From Crocinitomicaceae bacterium (GTDB lineage: Bacteria; Bacteroidota; Bacteroidia; Flavobacteriales_D; Crocinitomicaceae), in contig JAQWYK010000039.1 in assembly GCA_029254025.1 (NCBI GenBank), positions 124,001 through 188,000 of the forward strand: a stretch of DNA of 64,000 nucleotides, written 5' to 3'. The notes under the pieces are model-generated. The model searched no databases. It was not told the DNA's origin and saw nothing but the letters and a program-made list of their open reading frames with translations. Positions within the stretch are counted from its first letter, which is position 1. Each line of letters opens with the position of its first letter. The position numbers and the translations under genes are program-made. Positions 49,328 through 56,045 of this stretch are shown here, piece by piece.

Positions 49328-51172
49328 TTATAAGGTTGCAACGAATTCTGCAAAGACCTCTTTGTGTTTTTGTAAATCCATGTCATGCGATAATGCGACG
49401 CGAACGATGTAATCTTTATCACCCTCCTTCGTTGTTCCTTGCGTCGAAGTGGCTGGGATGGTCCAGTAACAACCCTTTAATTGACCGTAGCTAACGCAGT
49501 ACTTACTTTCGTTAGGGATTCGGGTAATCATTAAGTCAATGAGCCGTTGGTTCAGTTGTCGCTTGTAGGCTTCTTGATCTTCCGGATTGTCTCCCTTGGT
49601 GGGTAGGTCCAATGAGAAAACAGAAGGAGTAAACCCCTGCTGCGCTAACTCGTCAGATACAAAATTGATTTTAGCATTGGGTAATGTTTCCATTATATAA
49701 TGAACAAAAGAACGGGTGTTAACATATGCTTTTTGTATGCGCGCATTCATAGAAGGCATTTGTCCTGCGAGAAATTCCACTTGTAGGTCTGTGGCTTCGT
49801 TGTCGCACAAAAACAAGTGTTTTTCAATGTTGTTCATTAGATGTTCAGCCTCAGCATTTGCTGAGCAATATCCTGCAGTACATTTTCCACCACTTGGGAA
49901 TTTAGAACCACTGACGTACGAGATAATTTGAATACCTGATAGTGGACTTGTTGGAGGTAAAAATTGAACATTTGGACAAAAAGTTTGGTCTAGAATAAAA
50001 ACAGGATCTATGGCTTGTATCCCTGTTGAAGTGTATCTTTTTCTAGCTAGTACAGAATGTAAATCATTAAGGTTGGGAACTTCTACCCTTGGGTTCGTAG
50101 GTATTTCTGCAATAATGTAGGGAATGCCGTCCTCGAGAGCCACGCGGTCTAATACTAGGTCAATGCTTTGTACCATATTATGTTGCCCGTCTACGGGTAA
50201 GTCCAGAATCTCTACGTTTGCAATGCATTCTGCTACACGTCGAGCTTGGTCATTTGTGCCTCCATAACAATTCGGGGGCACGATAATTTTTATAGGTTTA
50301 CCAGGTCGATGTTGCATGGCCTCATCGATTAGTCCCATCATAATTGCATATTGTATTGATAATCCAGAAGAACCAATGACTGCTTTTGTGTGTGCTCCTG
50401 TTATTTCATGTATCAACCCGAGAACGGTTTCTTTAAGTATACTCGTCGTTTCTTTAAATTCGGGGAGCGAGGTGTTATTTACAAGTTGCTCTAGGGCTTT
50501 CAAGCAATTGGCGGGCGTCATTGCAATTGTTTCTCTTCTCCTCACATGCTGAATCTCAGAAATGTAGGCAGCATAATCAGTTTTATTAACGGTAAGTATG
50601 CTTCCCAAGGATTCATATAATGCAACGTGAAAATCAACTTCAGGAGCACGGTCGATAGCACCCATTTCTGGGGGTGAAGAAACAAATACCGTAGTTCCAT
50701 CAAATGAAGGAAGTTTATGTGAATCACTAATTTCAACAACCTCAAAACGGTAGCCGTATACTTTCCGTATTGTTTCTGCGTCGAAACAGCTCGGTAAAGT
50801 TTTATTGTAAGCAATTCGTGTATTACGTTTAGAGATTAAGTTTTTGCGCAAGATCGCAAGTATAGGAGTCGTTTTCGAAGAGAAACTGATAACATGTTCT
50901 GATGGAAGGTCATTATCTTTAGCAATTGCCCATTCTAAAACGGTAGAGAGAGGATGACCTAAACGAATATAATCATAAGCTGTAGGTAACTCTAAAAGTT
51001 GTTCACTTGTAAAGCGGCCTGTTTTATATAGACCATCAAGACTTAAGACAAACTCAGTTTTCGCTTTTTTTTCATTATATATATCTAGTCTGTGTGTTGT
51101 GAGTGTTAACCAATCATTGGGTAATTGATTTATTACTGTGCGCACAAATTCTAATGGATTTTTTTCTTTCAT
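49328..51172 (-). CDS. Cys/Met-metabolism-type PLP enzyme with large N-terminal extension
   Basis: The 614 residues are far longer than the roughly 390-430 usual in the cystathionine synthase/lyase family. Residues from about 225 match that family: NCYGGT at 301-306, IPTNPRVEVPNL from 357, DQTFCP at 395-400 (the DNTF motif) and the PLP lysine Lys424 in VSGSKFPSGGK. Residues 1-220 are not recognised but show a pattern (ISFSSKTTPILAILRKNL; TTVFVSSP) resembling a degenerate copy of a PLP large domain. Substrate unknown: C-S lyase, gamma-lyase or synthase are all possible. It lies 90 bases from the photolyase run on the same strand. Confidence 0.75.
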   Translation of the reverse strand: MKEKNPLEFVRTVINQLPNDWLTLTTHRLDIYNEKKAKTEFVLSLDGLYKTGRFTSEQLLELPTAYDYIRLGHPLSTVLEWAIAKDNDLPSEHVISFSSKTTPILAILRKNLISKRNTRIAYNKTLPSCFDAETIRKVYGYRFEVVEISDSHKLPSFDGTTVFVSSPPEMGAIDRAPEVDFHVALYESLGSILTVNKTDYAAYISEIQHVRRRETIAMTPANCLKALEQLVNNTSLPEFKETTSILKETVLGLIHEITGAHTKAVIGSSGLSIQYAIMMGLIDEAMQHRPGKPIKIIVPPNCYGGTNDQARRVAECIANVEILDLPVDGQHNMVQSIDLVLDRVALEDGIPYIIAEIPTNPRVEVPNLNDLHSVLARKRYTSTGIQAIDPVFILDQTFCPNVQFLPPTSPLSGIQIISYVSGSKFPSGGKCTAGYCSANAEAEHLMNNIEKHLFLCDNEATDLQVEFLAGQMPSMNARIQKAYVNTRSFVHYIMETLPNAKINFVSDELAQQGFTPSVFSLDLPTKGDNPEDQEAYKRQLNQRLIDLMITRIPNESKYCVSYGQLKGCYWTIPATSTQGTTKEGDKDYIVRVALSHDMDLQKHKEVFAEFVATL

Positions 51173-51262: not shown

Positions 51263-52759
51263 TTAAAATTGTCCAGCGCTTTTTTCGTAGAGCATCTGCC
51301 GATCGATGAACTCTGAAGCCTTTCTAAGGTGTTCTTCTAGTTTTTCGGATGACATTCTTGTCAAATGAAAGGTCATTGGTGTTGTCCGTGGGTTAGCTTT
51401 GAAAAACTCTTGATGTTTATACACAAATCTCCAATATAAGGCATCCCAAAGTCCTGTCCATTCATTTTCTTTTTTTGCGCCCATTTTTATAAGGTAATTA
51501 GAAGAGCTAATGTAAGGCTTGGTGGACATTATTCCGCCATCAGCGTGAAGACTCATTCCATACACATTTGGAACCATAACCCAGTCATATGCGTCGATAT
51601 AATATTGCATGAAATAATTATAGACCGCATCAGGGTGGATTTCAGCGAGTGTGAAAAAATTACCGAGCACCATGAGCCGCTCAATATGATGGGCATAACC
51701 ACATTTTTCAACTTTTTGCTGTACTTCTCGAAGTGGCTTTAGCTGGTTGAGGAGCTCACCGGATAATTGATAATTTGAGTTCCATTGATTCGAGGTGCGT
51801 TGTCGAGTTCCATGACGTTCATAGATGGCTCGAATAAATTCTCTCCACCCTATGATTTGACGAATAAAACCTTCTAGACTTGATAATCGAATTGTATTTT
51901 CAGCGCAATAGGCAAGCGCTTCAGTCACTACAAATTTGGGAGTCAGTAAGCCACAATTAATGGATGACGAAAGCATGCTGTGGTTCAGAAAAGGCTGCGT
52001 GGAGGAGAGAGCGTCTTGATACGGCCCAAAGTCGTTGAAGCGGTATTCAAAAAAATTGTACATCAAGCGTTCAGCCTCATCAAAGGTAACAGGGTACAGA
52101 AATGGCTGGACGGCTCCTGGGTGATCTGAAAAGCACTCTTGCACATAGGCAATGGCTTTTTTAACGTATTGGTTCTCTTCAGGAAAACTTGGAATGGGTG
52201 CTGAATAGTTTTTGGGAAGGGATTTTCTGTTTTCCTGATCAAAACTCCATGAACTACCGATTGGTTTACCATTTTCGACGAGAATACCATGGAGTATGCG
52301 TTGTTTTTTATAGAAATCACCCAAGCGATAATGGTTTTTTAATTTACCCAAGTGATCTTCGTTCGTGCTGACGTCATTCATAAAAGCAGGAGTTGTATAT
52401 TCAACTACTTTTAAGTTGTTGGAGGAAGCTGCCCTCTGAATCCGCTTTGAAAGGAGGAAGTCTACGGGTTCACAGAGGTGTACTTCCTCAACAGATTCGT
52501 CGCCCAAATCGCGTTTGAAAAAAGTCTCAAGCGTACCGTAATCGCGGTGGTCGATGTATGTGACGCGATAGCCTTGGTGTACCAGAAAGTCTGCATAGAA
52601 TTTCATGCTTGCCCTGTGCAACACCAGCTTCATTTTGTGAAATTTTTGATAACTGAAGAATAAGTCGTCTTCAACAAGAAAAACACGTCGGTGTTTGTCC
52701 AAGCAAGGGTTGTCTTGAAACAACTGGTTTGGGAATATGATGCTTACTGTGGGGGTCAT
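51263..52759 (-). CDS. PhrB/DPRP-type photolyase homologue lacking the Fe-S cysteines
   Basis: From the ATG at 52759 it has 498 residues (a TTG two codons upstream is in frame). It matches the deoxyribodipyrimidine-photolyase-related group, whose PhrB member repairs (6-4) photoproducts and binds FAD plus a ribolumazine antenna. Visible signatures are CGYAHHIERLMVLGNF from 353, YIDAYDWVMVPNVYGMSLHADGG from 387 and STKPYISSSNY from 412. The family's cluster ligands (a CxxC pair and a CP motif between KM and LYW) are replaced by GAKKENEWTGLWD at 427-439, with no cysteine. It is the last of three photolyase-family genes in a row, four to six bases after the DASH gene. Confidence 0.88.
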   Translation of the reverse strand: MTPTVSIIFPNQLFQDNPCLDKHRRVFLVEDDLFFSYQKFHKMKLVLHRASMKFYADFLVHQGYRVTYIDHRDYGTLETFFKRDLGDESVEEVHLCEPVDFLLSKRIQRAASSNNLKVVEYTTPAFMNDVSTNEDHLGKLKNHYRLGDFYKKQRILHGILVENGKPIGSSWSFDQENRKSLPKNYSAPIPSFPEENQYVKKAIAYVQECFSDHPGAVQPFLYPVTFDEAERLMYNFFEYRFNDFGPYQDALSSTQPFLNHSMLSSSINCGLLTPKFVVTEALAYCAENTIRLSSLEGFIRQIIGWREFIRAIYERHGTRQRTSNQWNSNYQLSGELLNQLKPLREVQQKVEKCGYAHHIERLMVLGNFFTLAEIHPDAVYNYFMQYYIDAYDWVMVPNVYGMSLHADGGIMSTKPYISSSNYLIKMGAKKENEWTGLWDALYWRFVYKHQEFFKANPRTTPMTFHLTRMSSEKLEEHLRKASEFIDRQMLYEKSAGQF

Positions 52760-52765
52760 AATCAA

Positions 52766-54037
52766 CTAATTTATTCGTTCAACCTCCCATTGTTTACTAT
52801 AAGCTCCCTTTGGGTCGTAATGTTGGGACTGAAAGTGGGTGTCGAAGACAGATTTTCCTTTAGGGTTGAACCCTAATCCAGCGATGTACATCCAATTTCC
52901 TTGGTTGGAATAAACATCATAATCCAATAGGTGATGTTCAAACCAAGCCGCTCCCCAACGCCAGTCCAACCCCAGCTCATGTACCAAATAGCTAGCGGTA
53001 TTTTGCCTTCCGCGGTTGGATATATATCCCGTATGGAATAGTTCTCGCATGTTCGCATCAATAAAGCTATTTCCCGTTTCACCCGATGCCCATTTATGGA
53101 ATAACGCCTTATCCATTTTTCCGGGAGATGGAGCATTTGTTAATCCTGAAGCACGAAAGAGTTTGTCTTGGTAGTATTTACCGGCATGCCTAAAATAGTC
53201 TCGCCAGAGTAATTCAAAGACGAACCAATTTGTTCCTTCATTTGCTCCATTTTGTTGTTCGTATTGATATAATTCAGCGTATACATTGGAAACAGATAAG
53301 GCTCCAGTGGATAGCCAAGGACTCATTTTTGAAGAGTAATCTGTTCCGAGGAGTCCGTTTCTTGTTCGTTTGTAGTGATCGATTTTTCGTGTTTGACTAA
53401 GATAATGCTGCAGTCGCGTATGTGCGGCTAATTCACCACCATTAAAGGGAAACACGGTTTTTGGGTGAAGGGATACACAATTTGGTCGTATTGTTTGAAA
53501 TACTTCAGTAGAGGCGGGAAGTGAATTAATGATTTCAGGGTATCTTTGAACATTTGGAAGTAGCTTCTCCACTTTTTTCCTAAATCCAGAAAAGCTTTTT
53601 GGAAATTCATGGAAGGAGAACATCTTGGGATGTACTAGGAAATTTCCGTGATAAGTGAACACTCGATTTTTTGGGATTTTCTGCAGAATACGAGTCTGAA
53701 CTGTTCGTTCTTCAGTTGCGTATTCCTGTTGGAAGCTGAGAGTGGCATTGTATTTAGCGACCAATTCAGGTAACACTTCTTCAGGTTTCCCATAAAGAAC
53801 TAGTAAATCGCTCCCTAACTTTCTATATGTAGTTTGTAATGCAGATAACTGGGATCTTAGAAAAGCTGCACGATGAATACCCGTTTTTCGAAACCCCCAT
53901 GGGAGTTGCGCAAACAAGCTTGGGTCTATAAGATACACACCAAAATGGTGTTGGACGTTCAGTTCACTGATGAATGGCTGATCACTCACCCTAAGATCAT
54001 TTCTGAACCAATGAATATGTGTGGTGCTAGTTGACAT
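52766..54037 (-). CDS. cryptochrome DASH
   Basis: From the ATG at 54037 (423 residues); a longer in-frame start would run far into the upstream gene. The DASH marks are visible: HWFRNDLRVSDQP at the start, YATEERTVQTRI near 127, PKSFSGFRKKVEK near 168, LLWRDYFRHAGKYYQDKLF near 283, and NMRELFHTGYISNRGRQNTASY near 330. GNWMYIAGLGFNPKGKSVF near 385 completes the set. DASH proteins bind FAD and a folate antenna and repair CPDs mainly in single-stranded DNA, or act as light sensors. It overlaps the upstream photolyase by 11 bases and leads the PhrB-like gene by under 10 bases. Confidence 0.93.
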   Translation of the reverse strand: MSTSTTHIHWFRNDLRVSDQPFISELNVQHHFGVYLIDPSLFAQLPWGFRKTGIHRAAFLRSQLSALQTTYRKLGSDLLVLYGKPEEVLPELVAKYNATLSFQQEYATEERTVQTRILQKIPKNRVFTYHGNFLVHPKMFSFHEFPKSFSGFRKKVEKLLPNVQRYPEIINSLPASTEVFQTIRPNCVSLHPKTVFPFNGGELAAHTRLQHYLSQTRKIDHYKRTRNGLLGTDYSSKMSPWLSTGALSVSNVYAELYQYEQQNGANEGTNWFVFELLWRDYFRHAGKYYQDKLFRASGLTNAPSPGKMDKALFHKWASGETGNSFIDANMRELFHTGYISNRGRQNTASYLVHELGLDWRWGAAWFEHHLLDYDVYSNQGNWMYIAGLGFNPKGKSVFDTHFQSQHYDPKGAYSKQWEVERIN

Positions 54038-55466
54038 GAGTTTGGCGTATTTGTTCTGCAAACCGACGAGATTCGGACGATTTTTTGATGCGATGGATTG
54101 TCTCCGTGGCAAATCTACCACTGGCCTCAACATCACAAATGGCCTCAGGGTAATGTTGTCCAAGGTGAAAATCCTCCATGATGCATTCAATTGGAGTCAT
54201 TTTCCAAGGTTCTCGAGCAAAAATAGCAGGTAATCGGGCTAATTCAGGCACCCATTTTTTTATGAACTCAGCATCTGGATCATGGTCTTCAGCTTGTTTG
54301 ATGGGATTGTAAATACGTAAGGTGTGGTAACCAACAGTTCCCGCTTGCATTTGAATCTGCGGGAAATGAATTCCGGGTTCAAAATCCAAAAACTGTTTGG
54401 ATAAGTGATCTGCAGCTGGCTGCCAAGGTTGTTGCAAATTGTGGGTCCAGAACGAGACAAGCATAGCGCGCATTCGAAAGTTCAAATAACCGGTTGTATT
54501 TACACAGCGCATACACGCGTCAATAAGTGGGATTCCAGTTTGACCTGCTGTCCAAGCCTCCAAATAATGGTCATTTACGGTTGTTCTTATGATGTTATAT
54601 GCTGGGTTTTGATTTTTAAACTCCATGTCACATTCTGACTCAAATTTTTGGATAAAATGGCAGTGCCAATGTAGACGAGACATAAAGTTTTGGAGGCTTC
54701 GATTTCGAGGTAACTCACGCATCCGGAGAGCTGTTGATTGAGTAACCTCTCTAATTGAAAGGACACCCCATGCAAGATAGGGCGATAAACGACTACAGTA
54801 GGAACGACTCGTCAGCGGCTTGGATATGTTCTTACTATAATTTGTATATCGCTTAGATAAAAAACTGCGTAACAGCTTTTCTCCGTTTAACCTTCCACCT
54901 CGCTGTATGGAGTCATCTTCCTCAGAAATCGCTAAAGAGGGGTTAAACGAATTAATTAGTTTATTGCTTGTTTTTTGGAAGGTAAGCTCTGAAATTGGCA
55001 CATGTATAAGGGGGGAATTCATAAATCGTTCCCAATCTTTATTCCATCCGTTTCTGTTTCTCCTTCCACGAGTGATGGCATTTTGAGGGTATTCAGCCCA
55101 GGAAAGACCTTGTTTTTTTATCCAAACTCTAACCGCTTTGTCCCGGACGAATGTAGTGTGAATTCCTATTTCAAGGTGAGAGAATAACCGAAAGGCTCCG
55201 TGCTCCTCATATAGCATTTGTAATATGCTTCTTATCTCTCCTTGGAGGACACTGATTTCTGCATTATAAGGAAGAAGTTTTTGCTGCATCTCTGCAATAC
55301 TTTCAAGCATAAATTTCCAATGACGATTTGAATAGTGTTCAGAATTGATTAATTCCGGTTCTATGACAAATAGCAGTATGGTTGGCCGACCATTGTTGAT
55401 GGCCTCCCTCAAGGGGGCATGGTCTGAGAGTCTCAAATCCCTTTTAAACCAAACTACATTTTTCAT
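54027..55466 (-). CDS. class I-type cryptochrome/photolyase family protein
   Basis: From the ATG at 55466 it has 479 residues. The N-terminal antenna domain starts with VVWFKRDLRLSDHAPL, the standard photolyase motif. The FAD domain has SYCSRLSPYLAWGVLSIREV near 225 (the phosphate-binding loop), LHWHCHFIQKFE near 267, AWTAGQTGIPLIDACMR near 305 and NFRMRAMLVSFWTHNL near 330. It belongs to the wider class I photolyase/cryptochrome family but is clearly not DASH. Whether it repairs CPD or signals cannot be told. It opens the three-gene light-repair run. Its start is 100 bases from the divergent remnant gene. Confidence 0.88.
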   Translation of the reverse strand: MKNVVWFKRDLRLSDHAPLREAINNGRPTILLFVIEPELINSEHYSNRHWKFMLESIAEMQQKLLPYNAEISVLQGEIRSILQMLYEEHGAFRLFSHLEIGIHTTFVRDKAVRVWIKKQGLSWAEYPQNAITRGRRNRNGWNKDWERFMNSPLIHVPISELTFQKTSNKLINSFNPSLAISEEDDSIQRGGRLNGEKLLRSFLSKRYTNYSKNISKPLTSRSYCSRLSPYLAWGVLSIREVTQSTALRMRELPRNRSLQNFMSRLHWHCHFIQKFESECDMEFKNQNPAYNIIRTTVNDHYLEAWTAGQTGIPLIDACMRCVNTTGYLNFRMRAMLVSFWTHNLQQPWQPAADHLSKQFLDFEPGIHFPQIQMQAGTVGYHTLRIYNPIKQAEDHDPDAEFIKKWVPELARLPAIFAREPWKMTPIECIMEDFHLGQHYPEAICDVEASGRFATETIHRIKKSSESRRFAEQIRQTHVN

Positions 55467-55566
55467 AGTGCTTAAACAGTTGGCATCTAATATTGTGCTT
55501 GAGGGGAATGTCATCCATGCGATGATTTGGAAATTTTATTACTTTTAATCATGAATTCAATTGGAC

Positions 55567-56045
55567 ATGAAACACACCTTAGAGCAATTTATTAAGCATA
55601 TTGCTTTAGCCATCGTTATTGCATCTGGATTAATTATGTCGTACATAATGTACGAGCTATCACTTACCAAGGAATCAATCGGGACATCTCTGGTGAACAA
55701 GGTAGTCGACCATACGCACCATGAGCTCAAAGACTTCTTTGTTCCAGTGCAAAATCTGTTAGTAACAGCAGCGGTACAAACAAAGATTCAAGGTTATCAC
55801 ATGATGGATACCTCCGACTTTGATCAACTATTTATTCTTGTCATTCAATATTTCCCTCACTTATCCTCTATGGGTATTGCTGATGATCAGGGGTATGAAT
55901 ACGACATCATTAAGGATTCCTTGGAAGGCCGTGGGTTGATCAGAATTGTGGATATTGAAGAAAAAGGATGATAGAACGTTTTGAAAATTGGAAAGGAGAC
56001 AATGAACAAGTTGACGACATATGTTTAATTGGCGTCTCTATTTAG
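55567..56045 (+). pseudogene. remnant of a membrane sensor SpoIIE-type serine phosphatase (internal deletion)
   Basis: Two pieces of one gene type adjoin. The first frame, ATG 55567 to TGA 55971 (134 residues), gives a membrane helix (about 12-32) and the start of a Cache-like extracytoplasmic sensor (FFVPVQNLLVTAA; SSMGIADDQGYEYD). In another frame, 55968-56045 encodes MIERFENWKGDNEQVDDICL followed by IGVSI and a stop. That matches the C-terminal end of SpoIIE/PP2C-type phosphatases (WKG..EQVDDI). The rest of the sensor, any HAMP, and nearly the whole phosphatase domain are missing. The fragment could not act as a phosphatase; a small membrane sensor protein might still be made. Confidence 0.65.

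Follow-up and report, generated by a model that had tools for sequence, protein, structure and literature searches.

Why should a single bacterial genome keep three distant members of the photolyase/cryptochrome family in one overlapping row of genes, and what would such a row do? The question is raised by a 64,000-nucleotide stretch of a Crocinitomicaceae genome (contig JAQWYK010000039.1, positions 124,001 to 188,000; hereafter the window), in which a first-pass annotation had noted three such genes lying head to tail on the minus strand. Measurement confirms this layout. The leading gene, which we call G1 (55466..54027, 479 residues), encodes a member of the photolyase/cryptochrome family, the second (54037..52766, 423 residues) a DASH cryptochrome/photolyase, and the third (52759..51263, 498 residues) a homologue of the PhrB-type (6-4) photolyases, here termed DPRP-B. 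All three start with ATG; the stop region of G1 overlaps the start of DASH by 11 bp (54027..54037), and a gap of 6 bp (52760..52765) separates the DASH stop from the ATG of DPRP-B, for which a TTG directly after that stop is a possible alternative start. The genes had also been taken for three distant branches of the family rather than a tandem duplication, and indeed the profile matches bear this out: DASH and DPRP-B pass the cut-offs of a DASH and a DPRP profile, respectively, and G1 passes those of two general photolyase domains. The row is probably one transcription unit whose members are co-transcribed; scans for promoters (17 matches, compared with 17.6 in shuffled sequences) and terminators (7 compared with 6.1) gave nothing above background. 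A phage search was likewise unrevealing, with ten records, of which the eight listed are 25-29% identical. We argue that the row is probably an operon for light-driven DNA repair, a type already familiar in outline, in which G1 and DPRP-B are the unusual members.

What kind of protein is G1? In a Pfam profile search it matches PF00875 and PF03441, and it hits five NCBIfam models without reaching any of their cut-offs, scoring 132 bits to TIGR03556 and 126 bits to NF007955, compared with 378 and 324 bits for the genome's own class I gene, a control that is itself below the strict cut-offs of both models (884.6 and 506). The models that it matches best are those for DASH, for plant-type cryptochromes, and for class I-like proteins. 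Numbered by alignment with the Escherichia coli photolyase (1dnp), G1 carries R264 in place of E274, F330 in place of N341, A334 in place of M345, and H367 in place of N378, the asparagine that faces N5 of the flavin (codon of His367 at 54366..54368, minus strand); W306, W382, and W384 are replaced by T295, I371, and M373, and of the Trp triad W306-W359-W382 only W359 is conserved. We compared 122 distinct G1 proteins of 400-800 residues, labelled by their best BLAST match and including that of the window. R264, F330, H367, and M373 are invariant among them, as are the counterparts of E. coli R342, R344, and D372, and A334 is kept in 118; Glu274, Asn341, and Asn378 are absent from every one, and a Trp stands at the W382 position in none and at the W306 position in four. 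In the same alignment, the N378 position is occupied by Asn in 21 of 21 class I proteins and in 41 of 42 distinct DASH proteins, the remaining one being unreadable there.

A tree of 25 sampled G1 proteins together with class I, DASH, and plasmid-borne sequences places the 35 proteins that have both the His and the Arg in one clade (support 0.996). A haloarchaeal relative encoded on a Halomicrobium mukohataei plasmid (L218:2935-4515) has the R, F, and A of the pocket and retains the Asn and the Trp; because it keeps the Asn, the His is specific to G1 proper, and this relative may represent an intermediate toward G1. Between the window genome and a congener, G1 is under purifying selection, with 0.029 nonsynonymous (dN) and 0.293 synonymous (dS) substitutions per site. 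Judged by its sequence, G1 is an uncharacterised photolyase/cryptochrome subfamily distinct from class I.

The label "class I-type" that G1 had been given in the first-pass annotation must accordingly be withdrawn. The same contig holds, at a distance of about 105 kb, a fourth photolyase gene (L001) that adjoins a flavin reductase gene; its PDB matches, profile scores, and residues all assign it to class I (FAD domain at G000:C36 71273-71722). The class I gene of this genome is thus a gene other than G1, and a class I identity of G1 was rejected on account of its R, F, A, and H residues together with this separate gene. A bifunctional enzyme of the PhrSph98 type was also considered and rejected: PhrSph98 is described as class II-like and as requiring E310, N384, M388, and W314, among others (PMC9649867), and G1 scores only 48.8 bits against the class II-type phr2.

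A hint at what G1 does comes from Deinococcus, where two plasmids encode single proteins that combine G1 with a uracil-DNA glycosylase (UDG), as verified with Pfam. These fusions, of 774 residues in Deinococcus sp. KNUC1210 (L193:3956-6280) and 757 residues in D. proteolyticus (L204:2986-5259), are annotated solely as uracil-DNA glycosylases, and the same annotation lies under the G1 match in five further Deinococcus records (at the annotation level). Among the open-licence papers that the literature searches listed, neither titles nor abstract openings mention G1 or the fusion, an absence that is weak evidence. As a separate observation, G1 is followed or overlapped by a gene for a DUF2256 protein in both Salinivibrio and Tritonibacter (L194, L196).

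Could G1 instead be a photoreceptor, that is, a signalling cryptochrome through which the row couples light sensing to repair? Signalling cryptochromes often lack the catalytic residues of the photolyases that act on cyclobutane pyrimidine dimers (CPDs), and G1 lacks them as well. Moreover, the N5-facing residue, which tunes the redox properties of the flavin in other subfamilies (PMC12083526), is a His in G1, and in the congener a sensor/phosphatase gene lies divergently beside it. However, the G1 of the window carries no signalling domain, the neighbouring sensor is a remnant in the window genome, the domain fused to G1 in the two Deinococcus plasmid proteins is a uracil-DNA glycosylase, and G1 follows the repair family DPRP in 59 of 63 genomes. 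We regard a photoreceptor as quite unlikely and infer that the role of G1 is in repair rather than in sensing.

The second unusual member, DPRP-B, scores 168.3 bits to PF04244 (cut-off 22). Its AlphaFold model (mean per-residue confidence, pLDDT, 87.7; predicted template modelling score, pTM, 0.90; weak at residues 401-420) finds its best PDB matches in PhrB, CryB, and Cc(6-4)PL, and superimposes on PhrB (4dja) over 484 residues at 2.0 Å with a Z score of 43.0 and 29% identity. With respect to the FeS-BCP group to which these proteins belong, DPRP-B has the domain and the fold as well as the counterparts of H366 and Y424, which are required for repair by PhrB (PMC4619345); H358, R361, and Y416 of the window protein correspond to H366, R369, and Y424 of PhrB. 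The four cysteines that hold the [4Fe-4S] cluster are missing. At the positions of C350, C438, C441, and C454 of PhrB, the window protein has P, a gap, A, and G by pairwise alignment and P, K, a gap, and G by multiple alignment; the codon of Pro342, at the position of the cluster ligand Cys350, lies at 51734..51736 (minus strand), and about ten residues are deleted around two of the four cysteine positions.

This absence marks a whole clade. Among the 98 distinct proteins in a set of 100 DPRP proteins of at least 430 residues, 43 have all four cysteines (DPRP-A), 55 have none (DPRP-B), and no mixed cases occur; the full set is also present in four further plasmid-encoded DPRP proteins, which come from two cyanobacteria, a haloarchaeon, and Novosphingobium. 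In a FastTree phylogeny the division between the proteins with and without cysteines is exact (support 1.0, branch 0.68), and because this tree is unrooted, loss of the cysteines and their primitive absence are indistinguishable in it. DPRP-A is found in Bacteroidota, Alpha- and Gammaproteobacteria, a cyanobacterium, Streptomyces, and Haladaptatus, and the named members of DPRP-B come from Bacteroidota, two Bacteriovoracaceae, and one unclassified bacterium (L145). Residues H366, R369, L370, M410, Y424, and Y430 (PhrB numbering) are conserved in all 98 proteins, including 55 of 55 in DPRP-B.

DASH is the unremarkable member of the row. It reaches 422.8 bits to TIGR02765 (cut-off 317.05), has 1np7 as its best PDB match (E 1.2e-100), retains E, N, N, and W at the positions of E274, N341, N378, and W382, and ends, at 423 residues, near the end of the TIGR02765 model. 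Elsewhere, its place near G1 and DPRP-B is taken by a protein of about 365 residues whose N-terminal part holds the FAD domain (loci L059, L060, L061, L063, L066, L067, L111, L128, L145, and others), which we call NewPHL-like. Its structure model, built from four sequences, is poor (mean pLDDT 48.5). In a profile comparison, its C-terminal part matched photolyase α/β domains with a probability of at most 32%, to DASH; in the controls, G1 reached 99.8% against class I N-domains and 1.9% against the fold-related N-domain of DPRP-B, and because of the latter value the comparison is underpowered for distant pairs.

Is the row more than a chance arrangement in one genome? As the first-pass annotation had suggested seeking, the same trio in the same order, G1-DASH-DPRP, is present in two relatives (L044 and L045) and in Flavobacteriales UBA2104 (L083), and in the same-genus L043 G1-DASH runs up to the end of the contig; because the order recurs in L044, L045, and L083, the row is more than a product of chance. 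The nearest named relatives suggest that the organism belongs to the Bacteroidota. In a set of 59 genomes, made up of the window's own and those of relatives, G1, DASH, and DPRP share one fetched stretch in eight, three with DPRP-B in the order of the window (the window counted) and five with DPRP-A, and another nine combine the NewPHL-like gene with G1 and DPRP-B, the DPRP gene being interrupted in one. We also examined 80 named G1 loci with up to 8 kb of flank on each side, which are the best-scoring of 586 and therefore an uneven sample; DASH and DPRP are both found at 21 of these (20 with DPRP-A, one with DPRP-B).

For the class as a whole, we drew 247 genomes of at least 90% completeness, of which 63 contain G1, 80 DASH (78 above the family cut-off), 54 DPRP-A, and 43 DPRP-B. 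The DPRP counts use 97 of the 104 DPRP-matching genomes, leaving out one ambiguous, partial case (G281) and six fragments or weak matches (G098, G164, G166, G182, G202, and G266). All three kinds occur together in 39 genomes and within 6 kb in seven (G000, G116, G230, G269, G280, G285, and G291); in five of the seven they lie on one strand, and the order G1-DASH-DPRP is that of the window's genome only. The first-pass annotation had allowed that the trio might prove standard; with seven genomes in 247 holding it within 6 kb, the tight trio is uncommon in the class, but its pieces are strongly linked.

These same numbers could be read differently, namely as an ordinary genomic island in which independently useful photolyases are brought together by chance or shared mobility, with no functional coupling. 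The tight trio is found in just those seven genomes, and its order varies (G1-DASH-B, DASH-B-G1, G1-A-DASH, and DASH-A-G1, where A and B are the DPRP types; the last of these orders is that of Algibacter luteus and Psychroserpens jangbogonensis). In addition, DNA identity to the congener L043, which is 85-99% in G1, drops sharply at the G1/DASH border to about 72-78% (window 54070-53351), with one patch of 93% within DASH (53830-53711), and over its first 240 codons DASH has diverged with a dN of 0.155 and a dS of 0.648; the mosaic is of the pattern that recombination would give. An island would not, however, account for the co-occurrence of G1 with DPRP and of DASH with DPRP-A far above expectation, nor for the short overlaps, from 1 to about 30 bp with automatic start choice, that recur between different pairs of genes. 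We consider uncoupled assembly doubtful, if conceivable.

The co-occurrence is seen at the level of whole genomes. G1 is accompanied by DPRP in 59 of its 63 genomes (24.7 expected among the 247), and the two DPRP types are never found together (9.4 expected). DASH is present in 50 of the 54 DPRP-A genomes and, with no excess, in 14 of the 43 DPRP-B genomes (13.9 expected). The NewPHL-like protein occurs in 31 genomes, 26 of them with DPRP-B and three with DPRP-A, and together with DASH in only one (10.0 expected). The 43 DPRP-B genomes thus divide into 26 with the NewPHL-like protein, 14 with DASH, none with both, and three with neither; of all 97 DPRP genomes, 91 have exactly one of the two, one has both, and five have neither. 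DPRP is accordingly paired with either DASH or a NewPHL-like enzyme, as if single-stranded DNA lesions could be dealt with by two enzymes that substitute for each other. Separately, one relative (G013) holds two photolyase genes with near-equal class I-like PF03441 scores on different contigs (C28:161713-162165 and C5:75927-76379) and no DPRP match.

So close a tie between G1 and DPRP also fits a G1 that has no lesion of its own and serves as an accessory partner of DPRP, in a complex or by handing over flavin or electrons. It is with DPRP of either type that G1 is found in the 59 genomes, their genes overlap directly in several relatives (by 4 or 11 bp, for example), and a flavin reductase gene (PF01613) is present in 15 of 41 stretches from relatives. 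Such a dependence is hard to reconcile with the four G1 genomes that lack DPRP, with several Vibrio and Pseudoalteromonas G1 loci that have no DPRP within 8 kb, and with the G1 of Deinococcus, which is fused to a uracil-DNA glycosylase instead; an accessory role for G1 appears unlikely to us.

How well, then, does a repair operon hold up? Repair is supported by the tight overlapping row kept in relatives, by the association across genomes between G1 and DPRP and between DPRP and either DASH or the NewPHL-like protein, by the retention in DPRP-B of the PhrB fold and of PhrB residues including H366 and Y424, by the precedent of an iron-sulfur-free (6-4) photolyase (PromaPL; PMC9426592), by the fusion of G1 to a uracil-DNA glycosylase domain, and by the fact that this genome has a rhodopsin, in keeping with a photolyase cluster enriched in rhodopsin-bearing Flavobacteriia (PMC5932025). 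Several observations nevertheless count against it. Since G1 lacks E274, N341, M345, N378, W306, and W382, it would not be expected to repair ordinary CPD or (6-4) lesions by known chemistry. The DPRP-B of the window has L or a gap, depending on the alignment, for the electron-path residue W342 of PhrB and Y for W390, the latter Trp being present in 49 of 55 DPRP-B proteins, and these changes put the photoreduction route of the window protein in doubt. Of the 59 genomes with both G1 and DPRP, only 22 have the two within 3 kb of each other, and at 31 of the 80 named G1 loci there is no other family member (18 with full 8-kb flanks and 13 on shortened stretches). Finally, the class-level associations and their Fisher p values (2e-26 to 5e-5 for G1-DPRP, DASH-DPRP-A, NewPHL-like-DPRP-B, and the two exclusions) ignore shared ancestry. 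Seven families (f17, f23, f27, f44, f50, f60, and f63), though, contain both DPRP types, and family f1 contains DPRP-B with DASH, in the window, as well as DPRP-B with the NewPHL-like protein, which speaks against an effect of ancestry alone.

For the repair operon, we propose the following mechanism. The three genes would form one unit of transcription and translation for photoreactivation, the direct light-driven repair of ultraviolet photoproducts. The proteins are predicted to bind FAD. For DPRP-B the expected substrate is the (6-4) photoproduct, which it would repair by means of FADH− and with no iron-sulfur cluster; for DASH it is the CPD, in DNA that is single-stranded or looped. G1 would work on DNA alongside DPRP, and its most likely target is a class of lesion or product outside the reach of the class I enzyme, with uracil- or cytosine-containing photoproducts as one candidate. 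One unit could plausibly serve several lesion types in this way. Much more tentatively, G1 might represent a class of light-driven repair flavoproteins not described before, with a His at the flavin N5 and an Arg/Phe/Ala pocket, whose targets are photoproducts that finish as uracil in DNA; substrates of this kind, either deaminated cytosine dimers or derivatives of them, would account both for the UDG fusion in Deinococcus and for the company that G1 keeps with (6-4) photolyases.

Is the unit controlled by light, as had been proposed from its neighbours? Upstream, on the plus strand and outside the operon, lies the remnant of a divergent membrane sensor/SpoIIE-type phosphatase gene (55561..56042), consisting of an open reading frame at 55561-55971 and a C-terminal scrap at 55959-56042. 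The congener has the intact gene (L043:6662-8572), which encodes 636 residues with a SpoIIE phosphatase domain; in the window, residues 1-134 and 609-636 are left, in different frames, and about 474 codons have been deleted internally, so the description of this gene as a sensor remnant was correct. Downstream by 90 bp is a gene for a pyridoxal phosphate (PLP)-type protein (49328..51172, minus strand, 614 residues) with a weak, below-cut-off match to Cys_Met_Meta_PP. No such gene follows the trio in L044, L045, or L083, and the one further PLP hit in a search came from the window's own genome (L172); because the gene is not conserved with the trio, we do not count it as part of the operon. Control by LitR was rejected for want of a candidate: a search of the window's genome for B12-binding MerR regulators of the LitR/CarH type, the only regulators searched for, yielded four PF02310 hits, all in frames of 718-1128 residues and so none of regulator size. 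With no such protein and with the sensor gene a remnant, we have no evidence for light control or sensing. The genome contains one microbial rhodopsin gene (G000:C8:36025-36687). Genes for TIGR03643 (DUF2805), flavin reductase, and SDR proteins recur around the photolyase clusters of relatives.

How do the row and its members compare with known systems? Published precedents exist for clusters of photolyase genes in Flavobacteriia, for a (6-4) photolyase free of iron and sulfur, and for an operon of two overlapping photolyase genes. The cluster enriched in rhodopsin-bearing Flavobacteriia (PMC5932025) likewise gathers photolyase and related genes, in a group near the relatives of the window, and the window genome is also rhodopsin-bearing; the excerpted account names neither subfamilies nor missing cysteines. 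In Synechococcus sp. PCC 7335, two photolyase genes are co-transcribed with an 11-nt overlap (PMC9649867), the same overlap as in our row, but that operon has two genes, one for a photolyase and the other for a bifunctional type that is class II-like.

The NewPHL-like protein shares its N-terminal FAD domain with NewPHL, described as "short", inverted photolyases for single-stranded DNA (PMC13274461). It takes the place of DASH in most DPRP-B genomes and is not present in the window, and it is likened to NewPHL by its domain order. Emmerich is said to have reported in 2020 that NewPHL replaces DASH in bacteria.

With PhrB and CryB, DPRP-B has in common the full-length fold, the His-His-x-x-Arg motif, and Tyr424/Tyr430, and it differs in the four cluster cysteines and, in the window protein, in W342 and W390, at about 30% identity. 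Cluster cysteines have been noted as missing in several orthologues (PMC12082625), and Phr2 of Prochlorococcus and marine Synechococcus (PromaPL) is described as a (6-4) photolyase without an iron-sulfur cluster (PMC9426592); that enzyme is cyanobacterial and is likened to DPRP-B by its description only. The missing cysteines are thus not new in print, and the exact division of DPRP into two clades apparently is. As the [4Fe-4S] cluster in prokaryotic (6-4) photolyases has been described as having a function still unknown (PMC12082625) and the cysteine mutants of PhrB are insoluble or not expressed (PMC4619345), a natural cluster-free clade present in 43 of 247 class genomes offers a direct route to asking what the cluster is for.

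G1, finally, shares with the class I CPD photolyases (E. coli Phr, 1dnp; L001) a two-domain architecture and R342, R344, D372, W277, and W359, and differs from them in having R, F, A, and H for E274, N341, M345, and N378 and residues other than Trp for W306 and W382. The counterpart of Asn378 was described in 2025 as replaced only by Asp in plant cryptochromes, by water in prokaryotic (6-4) photolyases, and by Cys in some animal cryptochromes (PMC12083526), a list that the His of G1 would extend. G1 adds to the photolyase family a branch with this His, and its UDG fusion points to a role in repair. Beyond what is known from these systems, the novelty apparently lies in the G1 subfamily, its fusion to UDG in Deinococcus, its tie to DPRP, the pairing of DPRP with exactly one of DASH and the NewPHL-like protein, and the exact cysteine split of DPRP.

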